Positions 101 through 10,438 of a stretch of 10,438 nt of DNA are shown here, piece by piece. The notes beneath the pieces were generated by a model. It saw nothing but the letters and a program-made list of their open reading frames with translations. It had not been told where the DNA came from and searched no databases. Numbering within the stretch: the first letter of the stretch is position 1; every line of letters begins with the position of its first letter. The translations under genes and the position numbers were made by a program. Source of the DNA: an uncultured Prevotella sp. GTDB lineage: Bacteria > Bacteroidota > Bacteroidia > Bacteroidales > Bacteroidaceae. The stretch covers positions 1 through 10,438 of the forward strand of contig CAKQDG010000081.1 of NCBI GenBank assembly GCA_934219025.1, given 5' to 3'.

Positions 101-131
101 TTTCAATCTTTCAATTTTTCAATTTTCAAAT
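101..131. repeat. Short 8-bp tandem repeat across the PPTase stop codon
   Basis: On the + strand the unit TTTCAATY occurs three times in direct succession (101-108, 109-116, 117-124). A degenerate, one-base-short fourth copy follows to about 131. The repeat encodes the last residues of the PPTase (LKIEKLKD), contains its stop codon and covers most of the 4-base gap before the next gene. A/T-rich TTTCAATT-type repeats of this kind are common between Bacteroidetes genes. Here one appears to have been absorbed into the reading frame, giving a low-complexity lysine-rich tail. Confidence 0.6.
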
Positions 132-720
132 CTTTCTCTCCGCATACGGAGCAAGCATATCCTTTAGAACAGAAGACTTGACTGTAAAGCTCAAACATGT
201 CTGCATCTTCTGTTTCAAGAAGAGTGGCGATATTATCGGTCAGTCCTTCACCGGTGAGTTTCAGCAGCGACTCCTTACGGGTCCATAGCCGGGCAAACTC
301 CGAACATGGATTTGCGGCGTTCTTTATGTTCATCCTCTCTTGCTCGCAGAATGCCGCCCCCAAAACATCTTCAGGAAGACAATGGGGAATTTCCTCGATG
401 TCGCACCCCACTGGCTTGTCGCCGACAACACACATCACGCCCTTTCTGCAATGGCTAAGATTGAAATGGATGTCAGGATAATTCAGAAGAAATGGTTTCC
501 CGTTTTCCCCGTATCCGAATTCCGCCTTCACGTCGTTTCCATACTCCAGGCGGAGTGCCTTGCGGAGCAACAGGTATGCACGGGCACTTTGCAGTCTGTC
601 AATGGGAAAACTGTAGTTCATGGCTATCGCCTTTCGCCAACCGGGGAGCTGATCCAAAGACTGCTCAAGATCTCTGCCTACAGTCCTTTCGTCTATGTCC
701 TCTATGTATATCTTCATCAT
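103..720 (-). CDS. Sfp-type 4'-phosphopantetheinyl transferase
   Basis: This 205-residue cytoplasmic enzyme transfers the phosphopantetheine arm of coenzyme A to the conserved serine of carrier domains. Its natural targets here are the two T domains of the adjacent NRPS. The family signatures are all present: GKPF followed by HFNLSHC (residues 74-91), VGCDIEEI (104-111) with the Mg-binding Asp107 and Glu109, and WTRKESLLKLTGEGL (146-160) with the third acidic ligand Glu150 and Lys154. The length is slightly below that of Bacillus Sfp (about 224). The start ATG overlaps the exporter stop codon in an ATGA arrangement (717-720), which indicates translational coupling. A second ATG follows immediately, so the start could be one codon later. 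The C-terminal KIEKLKD tail derives from a short tandem repeat and is unlikely to be functional. Confidence 0.95.
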   Translation of the reverse strand: MMKIYIEDIDERTVGRDLEQSLDQLPGWRKAIAMNYSFPIDRLQSARAYLLLRKALRLEYGNDVKAEFGYGENGKPFLLNYPDIHFNLSHCRKGVMCVVGDKPVGCDIEEIPHCLPEDVLGAAFCEQERMNIKNAANPCSEFARLWTRKESLLKLTGEGLTDNIATLLETEDADMFELYSQVFCSKGYACSVCGEKDLKIEKLKD

Positions 721-2474
721 GAGAGTGCCGGTACGGTTTGGTCTGCCTTGTCGTGAAAGACACTGGTTGTCGTGTTCTGATGGAAGATATAGTCGTATTT
801 CAGTTCGCCATACATACCCTTAACAATAGTCAGTCCGATTTTGTCTACCTCTTTGTGCTCAATCGGGTTAAACGGTCGGGCATCGTCACACAGGATGAGC
901 TTCACACCTTCTGGAATTAAAACAAGGCGGTAGTCAATGTAGCGCTTTTTGCCTCCTACTTTCAGTCCGTGGGTAATGATATTGTTTATCAGTTCCTCGG
1001 ATGTCAGCTCTATATGCATTGCCATATCTTTGCCTACTCCGTTTTTTCCAAGGAAATCCCTTGCAGACGCCAATGCCTCTGCCATACTGCTGAAGTTTGG
1101 CTCTATTGAAGTTTCAAATCCTATATAGTCGTCGTACTTAGGCACGAGTATCAACGGGCAACGGCTCTTGTCGCGCCATACGCCAAGTGTCGAAATTATT
1201 ATGATACATACTGCCGTAAACAGCTGTCCGAAGGCAAAGCCCCACCACACATGGTCTATGCAAAACTCTGCAAACAGCCAAATGCCGAAAGTTGGGGCAA
1301 GCGACTGGCATACCGACAGGAAGGTTGCTATCTTACTGTTGTCGTACAACTGGTATATGGGCAACAGCAGATATAGCATGCACATCAGAATTATATTGGC
1401 AGAAAACGGAGGGATAGCCTCTACCGCTGCCTGCAGGTAGCGGGGAGATGAAACGCCAAACAGCAGCGACACATACTGCGGAGCGAAAATCAGCGGCATA
1501 ACAAAGAAGAAAAAGCATACTGCCATAAACCCGTAGGCACGACGTATTGTCATCATCACTCCGCTACGGTCTCCGGCACCTTTCAATATCGAAGCAACCG
1601 GCTGGAAGGTCTTTAATGTTCCGGAAAGGATTATCATCGATATTTCAAGAAGATACATGCACACGGAGAGTGCCACGATGCCTATATCACCGAGATACTT
1701 CATTATGACACAGTTGTTGCCCCACAGCTGCACGGCAATCAACATGGTGGCAAGGCCAAAGGGTATGCCTTCGGCTACGGATTTCCCTAACGTAGGCATG
1801 ATATCATGATACACAAGCTTCAACGACTCTTTTTTCATGAAATGCGGAATCAGAAACAATACCGACACAACATTTGATATCATCGTGGCATATGCCGCAC
1901 CAGCTACCCCCCAGTCGAACAAATCGATGAACATATAGTCGAGGAATATGTTTACCAAAGTGGCTGCGACAATGGACAGGCTGACACGCTTCGGACTGCC
2001 GTCTACCGTTACGAACATCTCCAACATTATCGAGAGCATGAAAAACGGAGCGGCAATTACCGTTACGAAGAAATAGCTGGCTGTTACGCCAAACAGACTT
2101 TCTTCCGGACACAGGGATCTGACAATAGGCTCCAGGCATGTTACCCCTATAACAAGGAGCACTACCGACATGACGAACGCCAATATCATCACGCCTGAAA
2201 AGATATGGTTTGCCTTCACATGGTCGCGGTTGCCGATAGCCACGCCGACGAGCATGGAACTGCCGGCTCCGACCAATACCGTCAAAGCATAAAGCAACTG
2301 AATTACCGGACGGCAGATATTGACACTGCTCATCGCCTGCTCGCCGTCGAAATGACTCAACATCAATCCGTCGACCATGGAACCGAGCTGACTTGCCGAT
2401 ACGGTGAGTATGGAAGCCAGCAGAAAGCTGTTGAAAGCCTTGTTTACGAGATATGGATTTCGCTTTTGTTTCAT
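717..2474 (-). CDS. MATE-family exporter fused to a C-terminal RsbW/SpoIIAB-like serine-kinase (HATPase) domain
   Basis: This is a 585-residue membrane protein. Residues about 10-435 form a MATE transporter with roughly 12 hydrophobic segments (for example 14-35, 52-78, 92-113, 130-152, 313-333, 355-373, 410-432). Typical MATE stretches include SQLGSMVDGLMLSHF near residue 28 and SILKGAGDR at 295-303. MATE proteins export drugs, natural products or lipid-linked molecules using ion gradients. Standard members end near residue 450. This one continues with a soluble GHKL ATPase domain (about 455-575): an N box (residues 489-498, with Glu493, Glu494, Asn497 and Asn498), a G1-like motif DDARPFNP (530-537) and a G2-like IGLTIVKGM (546-554). 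This layout matches anti-sigma-factor serine kinases rather than two-component histidine kinases, as there is no phospho-accepting His domain. The start lies 13 bases after the NRPS stop, and the end overlaps the PPTase start. Its position argues for export of the NRPS product, with the kinase acting on the STAS protein encoded upstream. Confidence 0.92.
   Translation of the reverse strand: MKQKRNPYLVNKAFNSFLLASILTVSASQLGSMVDGLMLSHFDGEQAMSSVNICRPVIQLLYALTVLVGAGSSMLVGVAIGNRDHVKANHIFSGVMILAFVMSVVLLVIGVTCLEPIVRSLCPEESLFGVTASYFFVTVIAAPFFMLSIMLEMFVTVDGSPKRVSLSIVAATLVNIFLDYMFIDLFDWGVAGAAYATMISNVVSVLFLIPHFMKKESLKLVYHDIMPTLGKSVAEGIPFGLATMLIAVQLWGNNCVIMKYLGDIGIVALSVCMYLLEISMIILSGTLKTFQPVASILKGAGDRSGVMMTIRRAYGFMAVCFFFFVMPLIFAPQYVSLLFGVSSPRYLQAAVEAIPPFSANIILMCMLYLLLPIYQLYDNSKIATFLSVCQSLAPTFGIWLFAEFCIDHVWWGFAFGQLFTAVCIIIISTLGVWRDKSRCPLILVPKYDDYIGFETSIEPNFSSMAEALASARDFLGKNGVGKDMAMHIELTSEELINNIITHGLKVGGKKRYIDYRLVLIPEGVKLILCDDARPFNPIEHKEVDKIGLTIVKGMYGELKYDYIFHQNTTTSVFHDKADQTVPALS
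750..1112 (-). other. Domain: HATPase_c / anti-sigma serine-kinase module of the exporter
   Basis: This covers residues about 455-575 of the MATE fusion and lies after the last membrane segment, presumably in the cytosol. The ATP-binding residues of the GHKL fold look intact: the N-box asparagines 497 and 498, the catalytic-type glutamates 493 and 494, the Asp530-Asp531 pair of the G1 region and Gly547 of the G2 region. In RsbW and SpoIIAB this fold phosphorylates a serine of a STAS antagonist. That activity is inferred here, not shown. Confidence 0.8.
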
Positions 2475-2487
2475 CTATCAGCTGAAA

Positions 2488-5400
2488 TTAAATTTTGTCG
2501 AAGAAGCCAAAACCATTTATCGACTTTACCAACCTCTCTATATAATCCCACGAAGTGAACGGCCAGTAATAACCAAGGCGATACAACACCTGGGTTGTGT
2601 ATGAACTGCTGTAGTCGATGTATCTCACGTCATGCTCGCTGTTGTTCGAATATGCCAGTATCGGCTGCAGGAACTCGCTTCTGGAATCGTCTTCCATCAT
2701 CTTGCGCACCCGCTCATTAAACTCATTCCTTTCAACAGGAGTGATTTTCATTCCTATCACCTCCATGCTGCGCAACACGTCGCCAAGGGGCAACGTATGG
2801 TTGTTGCAGGGATGCAGAACTATCATTTGGCGCGGTGTCTTGGCAAGTAGCCTACTTGCACGGCACACTTCGTCGATTGGTGAGAACTCGCACGGCTCGT
2901 CCATCATGTCATACGATACGCATCCCAACTGGGCAAAGGCTCTCAATCTGCCCATAAAACCGTTTGTGCGGAAGTTTATCTGGAACTCGCCGTCGGCATT
3001 TCGGGAAGCAAGAGTTGCCACGCGCAATATTTTTGCATTCAGACTGTTGTCTCTAACAGCCTCGAAAACAAGCTTTTCAGCATTATACTTCGACTTGATA
3101 TACTGGTTGTCGAGCGATTGTCCGAAGTCGAACATGTGTTCGGTGAGCCTCGTGTCGGGCGAAGGCACCCCGTCTACGCTCAATCCACCAATACTGATGG
3201 TAGAAATCTGCACAAGTCTTGTATCTGTCTGCAAGCACCATCTAATAATATTGCGCACACCTTCCACATTGACTTTCTCTATATCGTCGCCAGCTGAAAA
3301 ATGCTTCACGTTGGCTGCACAGTTTATCGCCGTATCTGCCTCGATATTGAGCGTGTCGAATGTCGAAGCATCGGTAACGTCTCCGTTGATTACGAATATC
3401 CTCTTGCCGAAGAGCTCTTCATACGTATTGTCGAAATAATAAAACAGAAGAGAGCGCAAGCGACTTTCTGCCGGCATATCCTCCTTGCCGCGCAATATGC
3501 AGTAAATGCGTCCCGTTTCGTTTTCTATCAGTTCACGAAGGAAATGGATACCCATAAAGCCAGTAGCACCGGTAAGCAAGACATCGCCAAGCGGTTGGCT
3601 CTCGTTCTCGCTCAGACTGTCTATGGTGTTGGCGTCGAGCAGTTGGGCAAATTCAGATTTTTTAATATTTCTGTCCGGCTCTGTCGCTACGGTCTGGTGT
3701 ACCGGCGCCCCTGATGCTCCATCGGCCTTGCCTTTCAGATATGCAGCAAGCACACGTGGGGTTTTACATTCAAAGATGTTCTTGAATGAAAGTTTGTAGT
3801 CTTTTAGCGTCAATGCAGCCACAACTTTTATCGCCGACACGGAAGTGCCGCCCAACGTAAAGAAATTGTCGTTGGCACTTATGCGCTCTATTCCAAGCAC
3901 CTTGGAGTAAGCCTCGGCAATATCCGTTTCCATCTCGCCTTCCGGTTCGGCATAAGCCGATACGGTAGCTTGCTCTATCACAGGCTCCGGCAAAGCCTTG
4001 CGGTTCACTTTTCCGTTTGGAGTAAGTGGCAACTCGTCCATTTGCATGTATGCGTCGGGCACCATATATTCGGTTAGCGACTGCGACAGGTTTTCACGCA
4101 GTTTGTTGCTGTCTATTTCGCAGTCGGCTGTATAGTATGCACAAAGATGCTGCATGCCTCCGATTTCCTTTACAACGACGATGGCGCTGCGGATGCCTTC
4201 GTAACGGCATACTGCATTTTCAATCTCGCCGAGTTCGATACGGAAGCCTCGCAACTTCACTTGTGTATCGATTCTGCTGATATATTCAAGTTGTCCGTCG
4301 TCGTTCCAGCGGCACAGGTCGCCGGTATGATACATGCGCACTTTGCGCCCCCATCTGTCTTTCTGGATAAACGGACAGTCGCCGAAGACTTTTGCCGTTT
4401 GGTCATCTCTGTGCCAATAGCCGAGACTTACCTGTATTCCGGCGAAACACAGCTCTCCGGGAATGCCCTGCGGCAAGATATTTCCGGTTTCATCCACTAC
4501 AAAGTTCCAGCAGTTTGCCACCGTTGTTCCTATCGGTATCTCGTTGATTCTCTCTCCAGGCTTTATCAGATAGTAAGTGGCATCAACAGTACCTTCTGTC
4601 GGTCCATAAGTATTCAGAATCTCGATGTGGTCGCTATAGACAGGCGGTAGCTTTTCGCCGCCAGCCGTTATGAAACGCACCGACAGATCGCTGAAAGTGT
4701 TGAGCAAGAGACACGTTACGGCTGTAGAATAGCCTCCACCGGTAATATGGTGGTCGTACAGGAACTGTCGGATTTCTCCCAAATCCTTTCTTATGTCAGA
4801 CGGCATGAGATGGAAAGAACCACCAAGGGTAAGTATCGGGAACATGTCCTCAACATGTGCGTCGAACGAGAAAGAACTATGACCGCTGATACGGTCAGCG
4901 GCAGTCAGCTTCTCCATATAGATTACCGTGGCTATAAAGTTATGCAAGCCTGCCTGATGAAGACGTGCTCCCTTTGGGGTGCCTGTAGAACCGGAAGTAT
5001 AAATCATATATGCCACTCCTTCTGGCTTCGACAGGTCTATAGGTGTGGCTTCAAGAGCCTTTGCCTTGATGCCAGGGTCGGCAAAGATGTCGTCGATAAA
5101 GAACGGCTGTGCATTGCCTATGTTGAATTCGCCTTCGGCAAGTGTGGCTTCGAGTACGTCATGTGTTGTTATGAGCAATTTCGATTCTGAGTCTTCAAGC
5201 ATAAACGACAGGCGTTGGTTTGGATATTCAAAATCGAGTGGCACATAAGCTGCCCCGCATTTATGGAGCGACAACACGATGAGCGGAAATTCCTTTGTAC
5301 GCTCAAGCATCACACAAACGAGGTCGTCCGGTTTTATTCCTTCTTCCAGGAATTTGTGGGCAAGGAGATTGGAATAGATATCCATTTCTTTATACGACAG

Positions 5401-8400
5401 TTCGCTATTCGCGTCTGCCACCGCCAGGCGGTCAGGGGTCTTGTGTGCCTGTTCCACGAAAAGGTTTGCAAATGTCTTTGTAACATCCATTTCCACCTGT
5501 GGTCCCATACCGAGTGTCATCAGTCTGTCTTGCTCTTCATCTGTGGTGATGGCAAGAGAATTTACCGGCGTTTCGCTATCTGCCGCCGACATGCGTTGCA
5601 GCAGAGCCGCGATTGCCTTGCCAAAGGTTTGCATTGTGGCTTCTGAATAGATACTGCTGTCGTATTCTATCTCGAATTCAAGTTGGTTGTCTGCCCTATT
5701 CCATACGTCGATAGATACAGGTGTCTTCACCGTATCAAGGTGTAACGGTATTTTCTTGCCAGAGGAATTGCCCAAGCTTATTGCATCGTCTAGCACGTCG
5801 CCCTGATATGCTACCATTATCTGCGGACTGACGCCGTATCTTTCTACCAGACTTGTGAACGGGTATTTGTCGGCATCTATGGTTGCAAGCATCTGCCGGT
5901 GCATATCTTTTACGACATGTGCCACGCTACCACCGGAAAAGTGGCTTACTACCGGCAATGTCTGCACAAACATGCCAAAAGTAGCTGCCAAGTCTGTCGT
6001 TTCACGCCCGTTTGAAATAGTTGTTATCATTATATGATGCTCACGAGTGATGCGGTGTAAGGTCTGCATAACTGTTGCCATGACGAGAGAACTTTCCGTA
6101 ACGCCGAGCCGCTGGGCACATTCGGTTACAGATTGGCGGCAAATGCAGACACGTGTTTTCCGGGCACCGTTTTGTGTCGTTCCGCTTGCTGATGCAGGAT
6201 AATGAACAGACTCTACTTCACCCATGATACTGTCGAAATATTTTTCTGCTTTTTTGTACCCATTGCCCTTCTGCCAATGGTCGTAAGAAAGGGCATAGTC
6301 ATAGGCTGTTATGCTTTCCGTATTCAGTTCTTGTCCGCTGTATGCCTTGGCGATATCACGGAGGAGCACGTTCATGGATGTACCGTCGAATGCAATATGA
6401 TGGATATTCAGCAAGAGCCATGTCTCGCTTCCGTATGTGTATACACGTATGTCATACAGATTATGGTCTATAATATTGAACGGACGGATTTGACTCTGGA
6501 AATATTCCTGTGTAGGCTGTTCTTCAAGGGCGATGAGCTTTATATCTGCCGGAGCTTCGTCAAGACGTTCTTGCATTATCTCACCTTCGTGCATCACGAG
6601 ATGTACCTTTATATATGGGTGGGCAGAGAGCGTTTGCTCTATGGCTTGCTTAAGTTTTTCCAGTTTGATACCGCAGAACTCAAGCAGATATGGTATGTTA
6701 TACTGCAAGTCGTCGGGATGCTGTTCCCAATCAATATATACTCCAAGCTGGTTTTGAGTGAGCGGATAGTACTTTTGCTTCGGGTAGACCTGTATCTGCC
6801 CGTCAGAATCTGTATCGCTGTTCAAGGATTTTATCCATTGGCGTATTTCCGGATGCTTCATCATTGTCTTGGTAGACAGATGTATATTCAGCCGTTGCTG
6901 CAACAAAACTGACAATTTTATTGCACCGATTGACGTGAGTCCCATGGACACGAGATTTGTTGTGACTCCAAAATCATCGGTTCCTAGTTGCGCGGCAACG
7001 ATTTCAAATATTTTCTTCTCTGTCTCGGTCTCCGGCTTTACTATTTCGCCTATTTTTATTTTAGGCAACGGCAGGGCACGGCGGTTTACTTTTCCATTTG
7101 GGGTTAGGGGCATATCGTCCATGTGGACATATACTTCCGGCACCATAAACTCCGTGAGCGATTCCCCAAGATATGCCTTCAGCCTGTCGGTATCAACAGT
7201 TTTGTCTGAACAATAATATGCACAAAGCATCTGTACGCCATTTATATCCTTAACGTCTACAGCTGCTGACTTTATTCCCTCATAGCGCGACAATACGGAT
7301 TCTATCTCTCCTATCTCGATGCGCAGTCCGCGCAGTTTCACCTGATTGTCTATTCTTCCGAGGAATACGACATTGCCGGCTTCGTTCCACTTTACGAGAT
7401 CTCCCGTACGATACATTCTTTTGCCATTGAGTGTAACGAACTTTTCTGCCGTCAGCTTCGAGTTGTTAAGATATTCCCTTCCTACGCCTTCGCCTGCCAC
7501 GCACAGTTCTCCTGCCATACCACGTGGCAACAGATGCAAATTGTTGTCTACAACATAAAGCTGATAGCCGGCAAGAGGTCTACCGATTGGTGCATCTTCA
7601 TAGTCGCGGGCAAGAGGATAGAATGTTGAAAACAACGTACATTCTGTTGGTCCATATACATTATAGAAGTCAAACGACGGTTTTTTCATCGGCAGGAGTT
7701 TCTCACCGCCTACCGACATCAGTCTTATGGTAGAGAATTCAAACAAAGATGCCAGCTGCGTACCTATCTGGGTTGTAAAGAAGGCAATGGTTAGCTTATT
7801 TTCCTCTATATACTGATAGATTGCCGCCAGATCCATACGCATGTCTGAAGGCAAAATATATACCGAACCGCCACACGCCAGCAACGGATATATATCTATC
7901 ATATGGGCATCAAAACCGAAGTTTGCATAAGCCACGCTTCGGTCGGCTGCCGTAACCTTAAAATCTCTTATATACCAATGACAGAAATTCACAATATTAT
8001 GCTGCTCCAGCACGCATCCCTTAGGTCTGCCGGTAGACCCGGATGTATAAAGGATCACAAAGCTACAGCCTGGTGTCGGTCTGTCGGTCAGAGTGTCTTT
8101 TGCATCCGGCAATGCCATCACTTCATCCCGGTTTATCACATATCCCTTGAATTTAGGCAAGGCTGTAGCTACAAGACTATCCTCTGAAAGGATTAAATCC
8201 ACTCCCGCATCTTCAATCATATACGAGAGACGGTCTTCGGGGAAGTGGAAGTCGAGCGGCATATAGGCTCCTCCGGCTTTCATCACTGCCAAAGGATAAA
8301 TCACCATCCACTCGCTGCGGTCTATCATAACGCCTACCACAGTTTCCCTGTCCACTCCATATTTCTGCTGAAGATGAAGAGCAAGTCTGCTTGTAATATC

Positions 8401-9813
8401 ATCAATCTCCCGATATGTATATATGCGGTTTTTAAAAACCACAGCCTGTGCATCTGGAGTTTGTCTCGCCTGTTTTTCAAACAAGTCCACAAGAGTTTCA
8501 CTCCTGTCGTATTCCATTTCTTCTCCCTTGCCCAAGGCTATAAGCTCGTTCTTTTCGTCTTCTGAGACAATGGAGATTTCTTTCAAGGTATTGTCATAAT
8601 TAGCCATCAGTTGTGATGTGCAGTTTATCACAGCCTTACACACCTGACGGAGAAAAGCCTCATCATGCAGAGCATCACTCGTCTTTGCCTGTATTTCAAA
8701 ACTGTCTGCATGCTGATAAACGAAACATATCAAGTCTACGTCTGATGTGGTTCTCGGCAACTGACGGAATTTTATCTTACCTTCATAATATTCAAATTCG
8801 CGGTCTATCTTGTCTCCCTGATAAGAAAAGAATATTTGGGGCACACTTTGTATTTCTCTACAAAACATTGGAAATGAAAAATTGTCCATTATACGTGTAA
8901 TCTGCCATTCCCCATCTGTGTTTTTAAGGAAATCAACGACTTTCGTTTCCGGATTGGCGTCAGCAATCAGCGACACCGTTTTAACAAACATTCCATAGGT
9001 GTTTTTCAGAGCCTTGTCATAACGCCCGTGACGCACTGACGCATATGCTGTTTTCTGTTGCCGGCTAAGGCGGGACAAGACTAACGAGAAGGCTGCCATA
9101 AACAGGATGTTCGGTTTCACACCATGTTTCTCACACCACTCCAACACCGATGCCTTGTCTTGCGTCTCGCTTACTTCCAATGCGCGGCCTGCTGATGAAG
9201 AGAAAGTGTCGGCAAGATGAGTGAATTCCATACCAGAATATTTCTTTTTATAGAAATCCGCAGCCTGGGCAAGCAGGGGAGTCTTCATCATCTGCTGTTC
9301 CTCTACAGCATATTCCTGTAGCGTTTTTTCTTCCGGAACGAGTTCCTTACCCTCCAGAGCATCAACAAGGTCTTTTTTCGGGAAGAGTGTAAAAAACGAC
9401 AATCCGTCTGAAATTATATGATGTATGTCGCATAGAAGATAAAGTCCTTTCTCAGTTTCTATTATCTCAAAGCGGCAGAGAGGTTCCTTGCCAAGGAGTT
9501 CAAACGGGCGCATAAAGTCATGCTCTACATATTCCGCCATTTCACTCTCGCTCATTTTCCGCTTCCCGACAGGAATTTCCATTGTCATATCTACAAGTTG
9601 GCGCGGTTCGCCCTCATCATTCATAACAATACGGGTATGTAGCGTTTTTCGTTTTTCAAAGATTTTCTTCAAAGAACTTTCCAACATATATGCCGAGAAG
9701 TCCGCAGAAAACTTCATTTGGCAGGCAAGGTTATATTTTGTCAATGCAGGTTGAGCCTGACACTCTATGAATATTCCAAGTTGTGATTGGGTTAAAGGAT
9801 ATGTATTTTCCAT
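2488..9813 (-). CDS. Dimodular non-ribosomal peptide synthetase with terminal thioester reductase (C-A-T-C-A-T-R)
   Basis: This 2441-residue cytoplasmic assembly line has the order C (about 4-420), A (436-915), T (922-998), C (1014-1430), A (1445-1941), T (1955-2027), R (2076-2441). Key residues look intact throughout: HHIISDG (131-137) and HHIAFDG (1138-1144) in the C domains, SGSTG loops at 591 and 1607, carrier serines 961 and 1991, and the reductase NADP loop and YxxxK. Each A domain activates an amino acid as its adenylate and loads its carrier, the second C domain makes the peptide bond, and the R domain releases the thioester as an aldehyde (or alcohol) with NAD(P)H. There is no epimerase, methyltransferase or thioesterase. 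The N-terminal C domain with no upstream module suggests N-acylation of residue 1. The start ATG lies 30 bp after the STAS stop, and YPLTQSQLGI just behind it is a proper C-domain beginning. The exporter and PPTase follow immediately. Module order and intactness are clear; the product is not. Confidence 0.97.
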   Translation of the reverse strand: MENTYPLTQSQLGIFIECQAQPALTKYNLACQMKFSADFSAYMLESSLKKIFEKRKTLHTRIVMNDEGEPRQLVDMTMEIPVGKRKMSESEMAEYVEHDFMRPFELLGKEPLCRFEIIETEKGLYLLCDIHHIISDGLSFFTLFPKKDLVDALEGKELVPEEKTLQEYAVEEQQMMKTPLLAQAADFYKKKYSGMEFTHLADTFSSSAGRALEVSETQDKASVLEWCEKHGVKPNILFMAAFSLVLSRLSRQQKTAYASVRHGRYDKALKNTYGMFVKTVSLIADANPETKVVDFLKNTDGEWQITRIMDNFSFPMFCREIQSVPQIFFSYQGDKIDREFEYYEGKIKFRQLPRTTSDVDLICFVYQHADSFEIQAKTSDALHDEAFLRQVCKAVINCTSQLMANYDNTLKEISIVSEDEKNELIALGKGEEMEYDRSETLVDLFEKQARQTPDAQAVVFKNRIYTYREIDDITSRLALHLQQKYGVDRETVVGVMIDRSEWMVIYPLAVMKAGGAYMPLDFHFPEDRLSYMIEDAGVDLILSEDSLVATALPKFKGYVINRDEVMALPDAKDTLTDRPTPGCSFVILYTSGSTGRPKGCVLEQHNIVNFCHWYIRDFKVTAADRSVAYANFGFDAHMIDIYPLLACGGSVYILPSDMRMDLAAIYQYIEENKLTIAFFTTQIGTQLASLFEFSTIRLMSVGGEKLLPMKKPSFDFYNVYGPTECTLFSTFYPLARDYEDAPIGRPLAGYQLYVVDNNLHLLPRGMAGELCVAGEGVGREYLNNSKLTAEKFVTLNGKRMYRTGDLVKWNEAGNVVFLGRIDNQVKLRGLRIEIGEIESVLSRYEGIKSAAVDVKDINGVQMLCAYYCSDKTVDTDRLKAYLGESLTEFMVPEVYVHMDDMPLTPNGKVNRRALPLPKIKIGEIVKPETETEKKIFEIVAAQLGTDDFGVTTNLVSMGLTSIGAIKLSVLLQQRLNIHLSTKTMMKHPEIRQWIKSLNSDTDSDGQIQVYPKQKYYPLTQNQLGVYIDWEQHPDDLQYNIPYLLEFCGIKLEKLKQAIEQTLSAHPYIKVHLVMHEGEIMQERLDEAPADIKLIALEEQPTQEYFQSQIRPFNIIDHNLYDIRVYTYGSETWLLLNIHHIAFDGTSMNVLLRDIAKAYSGQELNTESITAYDYALSYDHWQKGNGYKKAEKYFDSIMGEVESVHYPASASGTTQNGARKTRVCICRQSVTECAQRLGVTESSLVMATVMQTLHRITREHHIMITTISNGRETTDLAATFGMFVQTLPVVSHFSGGSVAHVVKDMHRQMLATIDADKYPFTSLVERYGVSPQIMVAYQGDVLDDAISLGNSSGKKIPLHLDTVKTPVSIDVWNRADNQLEFEIEYDSSIYSEATMQTFGKAIAALLQRMSAADSETPVNSLAITTDEEQDRLMTLGMGPQVEMDVTKTFANLFVEQAHKTPDRLAVADANSELSYKEMDIYSNLLAHKFLEEGIKPDDLVCVMLERTKEFPLIVLSLHKCGAAYVPLDFEYPNQRLSFMLEDSESKLLITTHDVLEATLAEGEFNIGNAQPFFIDDIFADPGIKAKALEATPIDLSKPEGVAYMIYTSGSTGTPKGARLHQAGLHNFIATVIYMEKLTAADRISGHSSFSFDAHVEDMFPILTLGGSFHLMPSDIRKDLGEIRQFLYDHHITGGGYSTAVTCLLLNTFSDLSVRFITAGGEKLPPVYSDHIEILNTYGPTEGTVDATYYLIKPGERINEIPIGTTVANCWNFVVDETGNILPQGIPGELCFAGIQVSLGYWHRDDQTAKVFGDCPFIQKDRWGRKVRMYHTGDLCRWNDDGQLEYISRIDTQVKLRGFRIELGEIENAVCRYEGIRSAIVVVKEIGGMQHLCAYYTADCEIDSNKLRENLSQSLTEYMVPDAYMQMDELPLTPNGKVNRKALPEPVIEQATVSAYAEPEGEMETDIAEAYSKVLGIERISANDNFFTLGGTSVSAIKVVAALTLKDYKLSFKNIFECKTPRVLAAYLKGKADGASGAPVHQTVATEPDRNIKKSEFAQLLDANTIDSLSENESQPLGDVLLTGATGFMGIHFLRELIENETGRIYCILRGKEDMPAESRLRSLLFYYFDNTYEELFGKRIFVINGDVTDASTFDTLNIEADTAINCAANVKHFSAGDDIEKVNVEGVRNIIRWCLQTDTRLVQISTISIGGLSVDGVPSPDTRLTEHMFDFGQSLDNQYIKSKYNAEKLVFEAVRDNSLNAKILRVATLASRNADGEFQINFRTNGFMGRLRAFAQLGCVSYDMMDEPCEFSPIDEVCRASRLLAKTPRQMIVLHPCNNHTLPLGDVLRSMEVIGMKITPVERNEFNERVRKMMEDDSRSEFLQPILAYSNNSEHDVRYIDYSSSYTTQVLYRLGYYWPFTSWDYIERLVKSINGFGFFDKI
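2491..3588 (-). other. NRPS domain R (terminal thioester reductase)
   Basis: This covers residues about 2076-2441, a short-chain dehydrogenase-type reductase of the Lys2/CarA (thioester reductase-like) family. The dinucleotide loop is TGATGFMG (2081-2088, with Gly2082, Gly2085 and Gly2088), followed by the NADP-type basic residue in CILRGK (2105-2110). The catalytic triad is probably Thr2205 in ISTIS, Tyr2238 and Lys2242 (YIKSK). All three are present, so reductive release is expected rather than a dead or Dieckmann-type R* domain. Two-electron release (aldehyde) and four-electron release (alcohol) cannot be told apart from sequence. Confidence 0.93.
3733..3951 (-). other. NRPS domain T2 (peptidyl carrier)
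   Basis: This covers residues about 1955-2027, with the canonical DNFFTLGGTSVSAIK (1982-1996) and attachment Ser1991. A linker of about 50 residues rich in Ala, Thr, Ser and charged residues separates it from the reductase. Confidence 0.92.
3991..5481 (-). other. NRPS domain A2 (adenylation, acidic pocket predicted)
   Basis: This covers residues about 1445-1941. Core motifs are MIYTSGSTGTPKG (1603-1615), FDAHVED (1650-1656), YGPTE (1736-1740), YHTGDL (1828-1833), the hinge at RIDTQVKLRG (1847-1856) and NGKVNR with Lys1935. Alignment to GrsA by eye gives the specificity positions D1651, A1652, E1655, G1694, I1715, A1717, T1735, V1743, D1744, K1935. Glu at the third and Asp at the ninth position recall pockets for cationic side chains such as Lys, Orn or Arg. 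This is a low-certainty prediction. Confidence 0.88.
5524..6774 (-). other. NRPS domain C2 (peptide-bond-forming condensation)
   Basis: This covers residues about 1014-1430. It opens with YYPLTQNQLGV (from 1015) and has the intact HHIAFDG catalytic motif (1138-1144) and GMFVQTLPVV (1280-1289). The core C2 region reads SAHPYIKVHL, without the arginine-rich pattern of the consensus. Since no epimerase precedes it, it should join two L-configured units unless the A domains select D-amino acids. Confidence 0.88.
6820..7050 (-). other. NRPS domain T1 (peptidyl carrier)
   Basis: This covers residues about 922-998. The phosphopantetheine attachment site is Ser961 in SMGLTSIGAIK (956-966). The usual LGGxS is replaced by MGLTS, but the serine and the following helix are kept, so the domain should be functional. 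Confidence 0.85.
7069..8508 (-). other. NRPS domain A1 (adenylation, hydrophobic pocket predicted)
   Basis: This covers residues about 436-915. Core motifs are ILYTSGSTGRPKG (587-599), FDAHMID (634-640), YGPTE (720-724), YRTGDL (801-806), the hinge around RIDNQVKLRG (820-829) and NGKVNR with Lys908. Manual alignment to the phenylalanine-activating GrsA domain gives the ten specificity positions as D635, A636, I639, F678, M699, V701, V719, L727, F728, K908. This code matches no textbook code that I recall. The lining is wholly non-polar, so a hydrophobic or aromatic amino acid is likely. Confidence 0.88.
8554..9804 (-). other. NRPS domain C1 (N-terminal condensation, probable starter)
   Basis: This covers residues about 4-420. 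It opens with YPLTQSQLGI (core C1), shows RKTLHTRI at 55-62 (core C2) and has an intact HHxxxDG catalytic motif at 131-137. GMFVKTVSLI follows at 274-283. Because no module precedes it in this protein and no other NRPS gene is in the window, it probably acts as a starter C domain attaching an acyl group to the first amino acid. It could instead accept a chain from a synthetase encoded elsewhere, or be inactive. Confidence 0.85.
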
Positions 9814-9843
9814 AATGACACGTATTAAATAATGATTATATTA

Positions 9844-10146
9844 TTACAGACCGAACATTGCCGAGAAGCCTGTAAGGTCGAATACCGTCTTCACTCTTGG
9901 CGTCAAATTCTCCACATGCAGTTTTCCGTTTGCCTTATTCGTCAGCTTTAGAATAGAGATAAAGGCTCTTAATCCCGAACTGCTGATATATTCAAGTCCG
10001 GAGCAATCTATTACTGTTTTTCCTTTGAATCTCTCGCCTTCGAGAGTATTAATTTCATTCATAAACTTTTCGGCATTTACTGTGTCCAGTCTTCCGACAA
10101 TAGTTATAATAGTCTTACCTTTTTCTTTTTTTATATCTGTTGTCAT
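9844..10146 (-). CDS. STAS-domain protein, anti-sigma-factor-antagonist type (SpoIIAA/RsbV-like)
   Basis: This 100-residue protein is a single STAS domain. It begins MTTDIKKEKG, followed by the beta strand KTIITIVGRLDTVNA, the segment KTVIDCSGLEYISSSGLRAF (43-62) and an ending in which VKTVFDLTGFSAMFGL is typical of the family. The phosphorylatable serine by alignment with SpoIIAA Ser58 is Ser57 (codon 9976-9978). The preceding Asp of the DSSG motif is Ser here, as in many SSSGL/SSAGL-type members. Such proteins cycle between free and phosphorylated forms under a partner RsbW-like kinase. The likely partner is the kinase domain fused to the MATE exporter two genes downstream. I prefer the ATG at 10146 over an in-frame TTG at 10164, since it leaves a normal-length STAS N-terminus. 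Thirty bases separate its stop from the NRPS start, which suggests co-transcription. A hydrophobic membrane anchor or extra domain is absent. Confidence 0.93.
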   Translation of the reverse strand: MTTDIKKEKGKTIITIVGRLDTVNAEKFMNEINTLEGERFKGKTVIDCSGLEYISSSGLRAFISILKLTNKANGKLHVENLTPRVKTVFDLTGFSAMFGL

Positions 10147-10196: not shown

Positions 10197-10438
10197 TCAA
10201 TATATTATCAGTCCCAACACTCCACAGAGCAACATTATCAATATTGGGTTTGCCTTTTTATAGCGTGTCATTACAAACGAAAAGGCAAAGATGGCGATGC
10301 TGATCCAAAAATATACGGGGTCTTCGCTAAGCGACCCGAAGTTGTCTTTCGTCATGAGCAACACGGCGGCAGCGGCAATCAGTCCTACGATAGCCGGGCG
10401 CAAGCCGCCAAACACGTCTTTTACAATCTTTGAATCTT
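10197..10438 (-). CDS. Chromate-transporter (CHR) family membrane protein, C-terminal end (partial)
   Basis: The minus-strand frame is open from the right edge (10438) to a TGA at 10197-10199, about 79 visible residues. The visible part reads DSKIVKDVFGGLRPAIVGLI and continues with further hydrophobic segments to the C-terminus at VLGLIIY. The GLRPAIVGLIAAAA helix and the closing pattern of hydrophobic helices around RYKKANPILIMLLCG are characteristic of the C-terminal half of the CHR (ChrA-like) family, which in Bacteroidetes often occurs as short single-domain proteins encoded as neighbouring pairs. The frame continues upstream of the GTG at 10415 without a stop, so that codon is internal and the real start is outside the window. 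Members are linked to chromate or sulfate-type anion transport, but many have no tested substrate. It is co-directional with the cluster and 50 bases ahead of it. A functional link to peptide synthesis is not evident. Confidence 0.88.
   Translation of the reverse strand, partial: DSKIVKDVFGGLRPAIVGLIAAAAVLLMTKDNFGSLSEDPVYFWISIAIFAFSFVMTRYKKANPILIMLLCGVLGLIIY

Follow-up and report, generated by a model that had tools for sequence, protein, structure and literature searches.

The locus and its switch-type proteins

The window analysed here is the whole of a 10,438-nucleotide stretch from an uncultured Prevotella sp. (assembly GCA_934219025.1, contig CAKQDG010000081.1), in which four genes form a single run on the minus strand. 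In the order of transcription, they encode a STAS-domain-only protein of the SpoIIAA/RsbV type (9844..10146, 100 amino acids), a nonribosomal peptide synthetase (NRPS; 2488..9813, 2441 amino acids), a MATE exporter extended by a C-terminal HATPase_c_2 domain (717..2474, 585 amino acids; hereafter MATE-HATPase) and a 4'-phosphopantetheinyl transferase (PPTase; 103..720), separated by gaps of 30, 13 and -4 bp. A first-pass annotation of this DNA had placed the STAS protein, the NRPS and an exporter-borne RsbW-like domain in one tight run, and Pfam and TIGRFAM models, together with these gaps, confirm it. The proposal that a SpoIIAA/SpoIIAB-like pair is split around the NRPS is also supported, the STAS gene lying on one side and the MATE-HATPase gene on the other.

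The STAS protein scores 67.1 bits against the Pfam STAS model (PF01740, cut-off 22.6) and 68.7 bits against the anti-anti-sigma superfamily model TIGR00377 (ant_ant_sig, cut-off 53.45), which makes it a member of that superfamily; its score against the SpoIIAA equivalog TIGR02886 (45.4 bits) is below the cut-off of 114.75. Of its six PDB matches, five bear the name of an anti-sigma antagonist or of SpoIIAA, and the sixth is a 'stage II sporulation protein'. In such proteins the phosphorylated residue canonically lies two positions before a glycine, which designates Ser56 (codon AGT, 9979..9981) as the predicted phospho-acceptor of the window protein. This residue shares its alignment column with Ser56 of RsbV, a position at which the SpoIIAA variant chain 1tid has an alanine. 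According to the accessible part of one report, Ser56 is indeed the phosphorylated residue of RsbV, and it is contacted by Glu49 of RsbW (PMC7340262). The candidate phosphoserine given earlier, Ser57 (codon 9976-9978), was thus off by one. Tyr53, Ser56 and Gly58 do not vary among the 45 distinct STAS sequences of related loci, and in a larger set of 51 distinct stretches, which adds loci collected later and includes one truncated copy of another member, position 56 is serine in all 51 while position 57, whose conservation had been put forward as a check, is serine in only 39 (alanine in 11, threonine in 1). Serine also occupies the Ser56 place in all eight archaeal STAS proteins discussed below, one of which (L028) belongs to the 51.

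At the other end of the pair, the 585-residue protein matches MatE (PF01554) with 77.2 bits, and its AlphaFold model (pLDDT 81.9) has MATE transporters as top PDB matches, which identifies it as a MATE family member. Residues 462-561 (792..1091) match HATPase_c_2 (PF13581) with 30.5 bits for a cut-off of 27.4, as expected of an RsbW/SpoIIAB-type domain. The E-x3-N box, a catalytic and magnesium-binding motif (981..995), is retained as E494 (993-995) and N498 (981-983), as are the G1 aspartate (D530) and the G2 glycine (G547). A phmmer search of the PDB with this domain gave no match. Its structure model, built on an alignment of MATE-borne and SpoIIE-borne HATPases (A2) whose first sequence is that of the window, has RsbW, SpoIIAB and UsfX as best matches, and lies nearer SpoIIAB/RsbW than histidine kinases. 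Given that the mixed profile A2 scored RsbW higher than did a MATE-only profile (A3), claims on the sequence are based on A3; the N-box Glu and Asn columns are invariant in A3, in alignment A1 and across intact MATE-HATPases. Dedicated natural-product exporters such as ClbM share the MATE fold, and the ClbM structure (4z3n) is among the matches of our model. ClbM reportedly acts in colibactin export and, unlike the window exporter, is said to lack a HATPase domain.

The NRPS has a C-A-T-C-A-T-R organisation according to Pfam domains (two condensation, two adenylation, two carrier and one NAD_binding_4 reductase domain) and motifs, with HHxxxDG present in both condensation domains and GxxGxxG in the reductase. 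The PPTase (PF01648, 48.3 bits) would activate its carrier domains. Both proteins find their best NCBIfam models in the aureusimine pair AusA/AusB, which likewise combines a reductase-ended NRPS with a small PPTase. They differ from that pair in scoring far below the equivalog cut-offs (1110 bits against 2500 for the AusA model NF047350, 69.2 against 225 for AusB), and in that the window adds a MATE-HATPase and a STAS protein. AusA is also said to lack the N-terminal condensation domain that the window NRPS has. Judging from what is generally known of reductase-terminated NRPSs, this one probably makes a peptide aldehyde or a pyrazinone derived from one, perhaps in N-acylated form. A survey of rumen biosynthetic gene clusters counts NRPS clusters of Bacteroidaceae, and the word 'transporter' is absent from its main text (PMC8241843).

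A chromate-transporter gene, represented by its 3' end (10197..10436), lies on the same strand and stops 50 bp upstream of the STAS gene, so that the STAS gene is unproven as the opener of a transcription unit. At that very place, relatives L001-L004 have a gene for a SpoIIE protein carrying a HATPase domain (SpoIIE-HATPase). Downstream of the PPTase gene, positions 1-98 hold the beginning of another same-strand gene, seemingly with a signal peptide.

Related clusters and their SpoIIE phosphatase

Relatives of the MATE-HATPase were collected from protein clusters, from named genomes and from samples of further genomes. Searching genome contigs with a single protein returned no relative, and an alignment-based search returned 31 loci. 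One of these, the Aneurinibacillus locus L031 (E 1e-4), matched over query residues 171-247 and was not used further. Domain maps were drawn for loci other than the search loci L032-L072, from which places of interest were retrieved anew. A separate count, also of 31, concerns clusters in which an intact MATE-HATPase is linked to an NRPS and the contig is informative. Outside it stand L005, L006, L015, L020, L022, L023 and L030, where the contig is truncated or the NRPS is not visible in full; L024, whose MATE protein has no HATPase; the archaeal locus L028, which lacks an NRPS; and the intact MATE-HATPases without NRPS (L081-L083, L085, L093, L154-L156).

In most related clusters, the maps reveal a third part, a SpoIIE-type PP2C phosphatase. 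Among the 31 clusters, a STAS protein is encoded on the MATE-HATPase contig in 29 and SpoIIE in 25, at most 17.3 kb away from start to start. The two-part switch proposed at first is therefore present as regards the STAS/HATPase pair, and incomplete in that relatives add the phosphatase. A dCache-type sensor is above cut-off in three of the seven bacterial SpoIIE proteins scanned with Pfam (L004, L009, L106); those of L074 and L001 have dCache and HAMP matches below cut-off, and those of L132 and L138 have neither. The cluster's own SpoIIE is the sole match of the genome in G001-G004, G021, G296, G443, G518, G611, G724, G762 and G785.

The position of the HATPase domain varies. Among 42 clusters having both STAS and SpoIIE, it is found only on the MATE protein in 13, on both proteins in 11, only on SpoIIE in 18, and on neither in none (p = 1e-4, with no correction for kinship). 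Conservation of the STAS/MATE-HATPase pair, as the first-pass annotation envisaged it, thus holds for the 29 of 31 contigs with STAS and fails for the 18 clusters that keep STAS with the HATPase on SpoIIE only. The latter comprise L024 and 17 of the 20 loci with a plain MATE; as for other plain-MATE loci, L115 and L121 run into the ends of their contigs, and no NRPS, STAS or SpoIIE is seen in L123, even when it is extended by L170. In the 13 clusters of the first class, the MATE-borne domain is the only candidate STAS kinase of the mapped stretch. The cleanest example is genome G021 (completeness not stated), with one STAS, one SpoIIE devoid of HATPase, and a MATE-HATPase that is the sole HATPase_c_2 protein above cut-off among the matches listed. 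In L001 and L002, where both proteins carry the domain, the SpoIIE-borne copy lacks the G1 Asp and the MATE-borne one is intact.

In a HATPase tree built from few columns and leaving out degenerate domains, MATE-borne HATPases form one clade (52 rows, support 100/98), which is separate from the SpoIIE-borne domains and recurs in every one of 200 bootstrap trees. In the MATE tree, the window groups with L001-L004, L091 and L092 (99/89), all with a HATPase on both proteins. The two trees conflict for L074/L079 versus L011/L014, a pattern such as an exchange of HATPases between lineages of MATE proteins would leave.

Where the active site is lost, the partners are mostly absent too. Strong SpoIIE matches (100 bits or more) are found in all 44 genomes with an intact MATE-HATPase (G024 being left aside), in 3 of the 10 whose MATE-HATPases have a degenerate active site, and in 15 of 80 controls of the same family, three of which (G435, G457, G826) in fact hold clusters with the kinase on SpoIIE. 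The seven degenerate genomes without SpoIIE are also devoid of a stand-alone STAS: PF01740 either has no match in them or matches within open reading frames (ORFs) of 498-597 amino acids. These degenerate cases fall into few clades, and hence represent few independent events. G1164 was counted as degenerate, its second MATE-HATPase (L153, 12123-13910), which lies outside NRPS clusters, also reading Ser for the N-box Asn; a SpoIIE without HATPase lies nearby. L084, L086-L089 and L099 form a clade of MATE-HATPases whose HATPase has neither the E-x3-N box nor the G2 motif and keeps a C-terminal YGQN, in genomes with no strong SpoIIE or stand-alone STAS matches.

In L094 (2-7312), one run of genes encodes a SpoIIE-HATPase, a STAS protein, a free-standing AMP-ligase, a MATE protein whose HATPase is degenerate and a free-standing condensation protein, apparently a non-modular version of the cluster. 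A protein of about 420-460 amino acids is encoded just upstream of the MATE-HATPase in L015 (4971-6275), where it has no Pfam match, and similar ORFs occur in L012, L016, L017, L022, L023 and L025. The MATE-HATPase gene of L027 (3218-4901) is broken across two overlapping frames, by a frameshift or an assembly error. Finally, the MATE-HATPases of L154 (5708-7423), L155 (8356-10119) and L156 (8475-10364) are second copies outside NRPS clusters, in G010, G017 and G025, with active sites that look intact by eye.

Sigma factors and carriers among archaea

Partner switching is known mainly as a means of controlling sigma factors. The TIGR02980 model (SigB/F/G) is above cut-off in none of the 39 carrier genomes, G024 included, and in one of the 14 control genomes. 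The best matches below threshold reach about 120 bits and are mostly ORFs of about 290 amino acids, which we take to be primary sigma factors. The expectation that this lineage does without SigB/SigF-type sigma factors is therefore borne out, as judged from these relatives.

The system also extends to archaea, which to our knowledge have no sigma factors at all. MATE-HATPases were found in 8 of 147 genomes from the order of G028, a Methanomethylophilaceae archaeon (nine matches, one of them a plain MATE). A STAS gene adjoins the MATE-HATPase in all eight; seven also have SpoIIE, L147 being the one where it was not found, and six have LuxE together with LuxC. The identity of the L028 LuxE/LuxC pair comes from Pfam, and an F420 ligase on the same contig fits its archaeal origin; in L152, a GH3 enzyme precedes the MATE-HATPase. 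As LuxE/LuxC or GH3 here replaces the NRPS, the exporter, the STAS protein and the phosphatase stay constant while the biosynthesis changes.

In L028 (2882-11716) and L146-L150, from Methanomethylophilaceae and archaea related to them, the order is SpoIIE (with or without HATPase), STAS, a HATPase protein of about 410-500 amino acids, LuxE, LuxC and MATE-HATPase in a row, an arrangement that, judged by domain content, looks like partner switching beside a fatty-aldehyde-type pathway. The HATPase protein of about 410-500 amino acids has a GNAT match in L148, and SpoIIE is on the other strand in L149. In L147, a single ORF (4088-6004) combines STAS with the HATPase domain of the HATPase-GNAT-like protein, possibly a natural STAS-HATPase fusion. 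L151 (24-3918) and L152 (1924-7536) have a three-gene unit made of STAS, MATE-HATPase and SpoIIE-HATPase, which the GH3-family gene precedes in L152. Away from NRPS clusters, stand-alone HATPase_c_2 ORFs of about 135-145 amino acids occur near STAS genes, some of them with SpoIIE (G008:C16, G009:C89, G010:C24, G012:C38, G025:C1 and others); these are apparently a general Bacteroidales partner switch.

What the switch may control

The STAS protein, the HATPase and SpoIIE very probably form a phospho-switch, and it is very likely that its output is not a sigma factor. As to what this output is, we consider the exporter itself the best single guess, with even odds, because it is the constant partner and carries the type of domain that binds STAS proteins, and because the smallest clusters (L001) contain no other candidate target. 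The window would then contain part of a partner-switching system of three components that is tied to the exporter and controls it, a reading to which we give a probability of about 0.5. The MATE-borne HATPase would be a serine kinase phosphorylating Ser56 of the STAS protein, and a SpoIIE phosphatase, here presumably encoded elsewhere in the genome, would remove the phosphate once its sensor binds a ligand. Unphosphorylated STAS would dock on the exporter HATPase and alter the activity of the exporter, so that export of the NRPS product would be set by an outside signal; the state of the exporter itself may feed back through its kinase.

Several observations weigh against this scenario. No SpoIIE-type PP2C was found among the five window proteins scanned with Pfam, and STAS and/or SpoIIE are absent from the contig in 7 of the 31 clusters: STAS in G007 and G1078, SpoIIE in G007, G010, G013, G014, G018 and G1013, with G007 lacking both, and G013, G014 and G1013 having clusters truncated by contig ends. 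Strong SpoIIE matches are common, being present in 24 of 50 genomes sampled across the whole order. The counts of HATPase placement are not phylogenetically independent, since 17 of the 18 clusters with the kinase on SpoIIE come from one MATE clade. Arg84 of RsbV is retained in the window STAS and not across the family, and the docking surface must therefore be partly different. Lastly, no STAS or SpoIIE was seen in the stretches read around the eight intact MATE-HATPases without NRPS. The last point would suit a switch that is real and acts on an unlinked target, such as a transcription regulator, a second-messenger enzyme or some other protein, the MATE kinase only feeding the state of the exporter into it; non-sigma STAS proteins such as SypA are described, in the accessible part of PMC8256260, as acting on unidentified targets. 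Against this, the smallest clusters (in L001: SpoIIE-HATPase, STAS, NRPS, MATE-HATPase and PPTase) offer no other candidate, and it is the exporter that persists where the biosynthesis differs, so that we find an unlinked target rather unlikely.

A different output is suggested by gene order: the STAS gene sits immediately ahead of the NRPS gene, 30 bp away in the window and likewise adjacent in L001-L004, and the STAS protein might act on the synthetase or on the enzymes working with it, in the manner of SiaC on SiaD, while the exporter HATPase would be a kinase withholding STAS. The trio of STAS, SpoIIE and MATE-HATPase is also found without NRPS, beside LuxE/LuxC or GH3, and the NRPS is therefore not the constant partner, which makes this proposal unlikely. 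It is also doubtful, to a greater degree, that the MATE-borne HATPase is a mere docking or ATP-sensing domain and that the SpoIIE HATPase is the kinase: SpoIIE does carry a HATPase in 11 clusters along with MATE and alone in 18, and the closest genome relatives of the window have both, but in the 13 clusters where SpoIIE lacks the domain that of MATE is the only one in the mapped stretch, and the catalytic Glu and Asn do not vary among the intact domains. Canonical control, with STAS freeing a SigB/F-like sigma factor from the HATPase, would agree with the anti-sigma factors heading the solved structures in the fold list; it appears very improbable in view of the TIGR02980 counts, of archaeal carriers without sigma factors, and of a HATPase fixed here to the membrane. 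That these genes are chance neighbours without a shared function is hardly credible, given co-localisation in 29 of 31 clusters that have diverged, and recurrence in archaea.

Comparison with known systems places exporter control in context. The SpoIIAA-SpoIIAB-SpoIIE and RsbV-RsbW-RsbU switches of Bacillus have the same STAS serine two residues before a glycine, the same HATPase_c_2 E-x3-N box and, as in our relatives, a SpoIIE-type PP2C; here, in contrast, the HATPase is fused to a membrane exporter, and none of the 39 carriers has a SigB/F/G protein above cut-off. SypA/SypE of Vibrio fischeri and BtrV/BtrW of Bordetella are non-canonical STAS switches; as far as the accessible part of PMC8256260 goes, STAS switches with unknown non-sigma outputs are already on record, SypE acts both as kinase and as phosphatase, which may also hold for the SpoIIE-HATPase of our relatives, and an exporter fusion is not described for these systems. 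In SiaABCD of Pseudomonas aeruginosa, the partner-switch substrate directly activates an enzyme, as stated in what could be consulted of PMC8457831; that system differs in its threonine phosphorylation pathway (PMC7647112, consulted in part) and in having a diguanylate cyclase as target. No description of an exporter-fused RsbW-type kinase, or of an exporter-linked partner switch in NRPS clusters, was found among the titles and abstract openings listed by a literature search, outside subscription papers and bioRxiv.

In a broader and more tentative reading, which we hold to be somewhat short of an even chance, the ensemble would be a portable exporter controlled by partner switching: one ancestral fusion of a MATE with an RsbW-type kinase, accompanied by STAS and a SpoIIE that sometimes senses through dCache, would gate, both in Bacteroidales and in methanogen-type archaea, the release of small molecules from varied pathways that form adenylates (NRPS-reductase, LuxE/LuxC, GH3). 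Its output would be transport and not transcription, in organisms lacking the sigma factors with which partner switching is usually associated.

The system of the window has an unusual architecture and a wide distribution across domains of life: a predicted kinase welded to an exporter is conserved, along with a phosphatase and the presumed substrate, a STAS protein, in archaea as well as in bacteria that lack SigB/F/G sigma factors. It provides a concrete candidate for a non-sigma output of orphan STAS/SpoIIE genes. If the exporter is the output, secretion of a metabolite already made would be switched via serine phosphorylation of a small protein, and this would reveal by what means gut Bacteroidales keep in check those NRPS products that are predicted to be reactive aldehydes. 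The recurrence of related gene sets in numerous gut bacteria and some methanogenic archaea suggests a new way of controlling small-molecule export.

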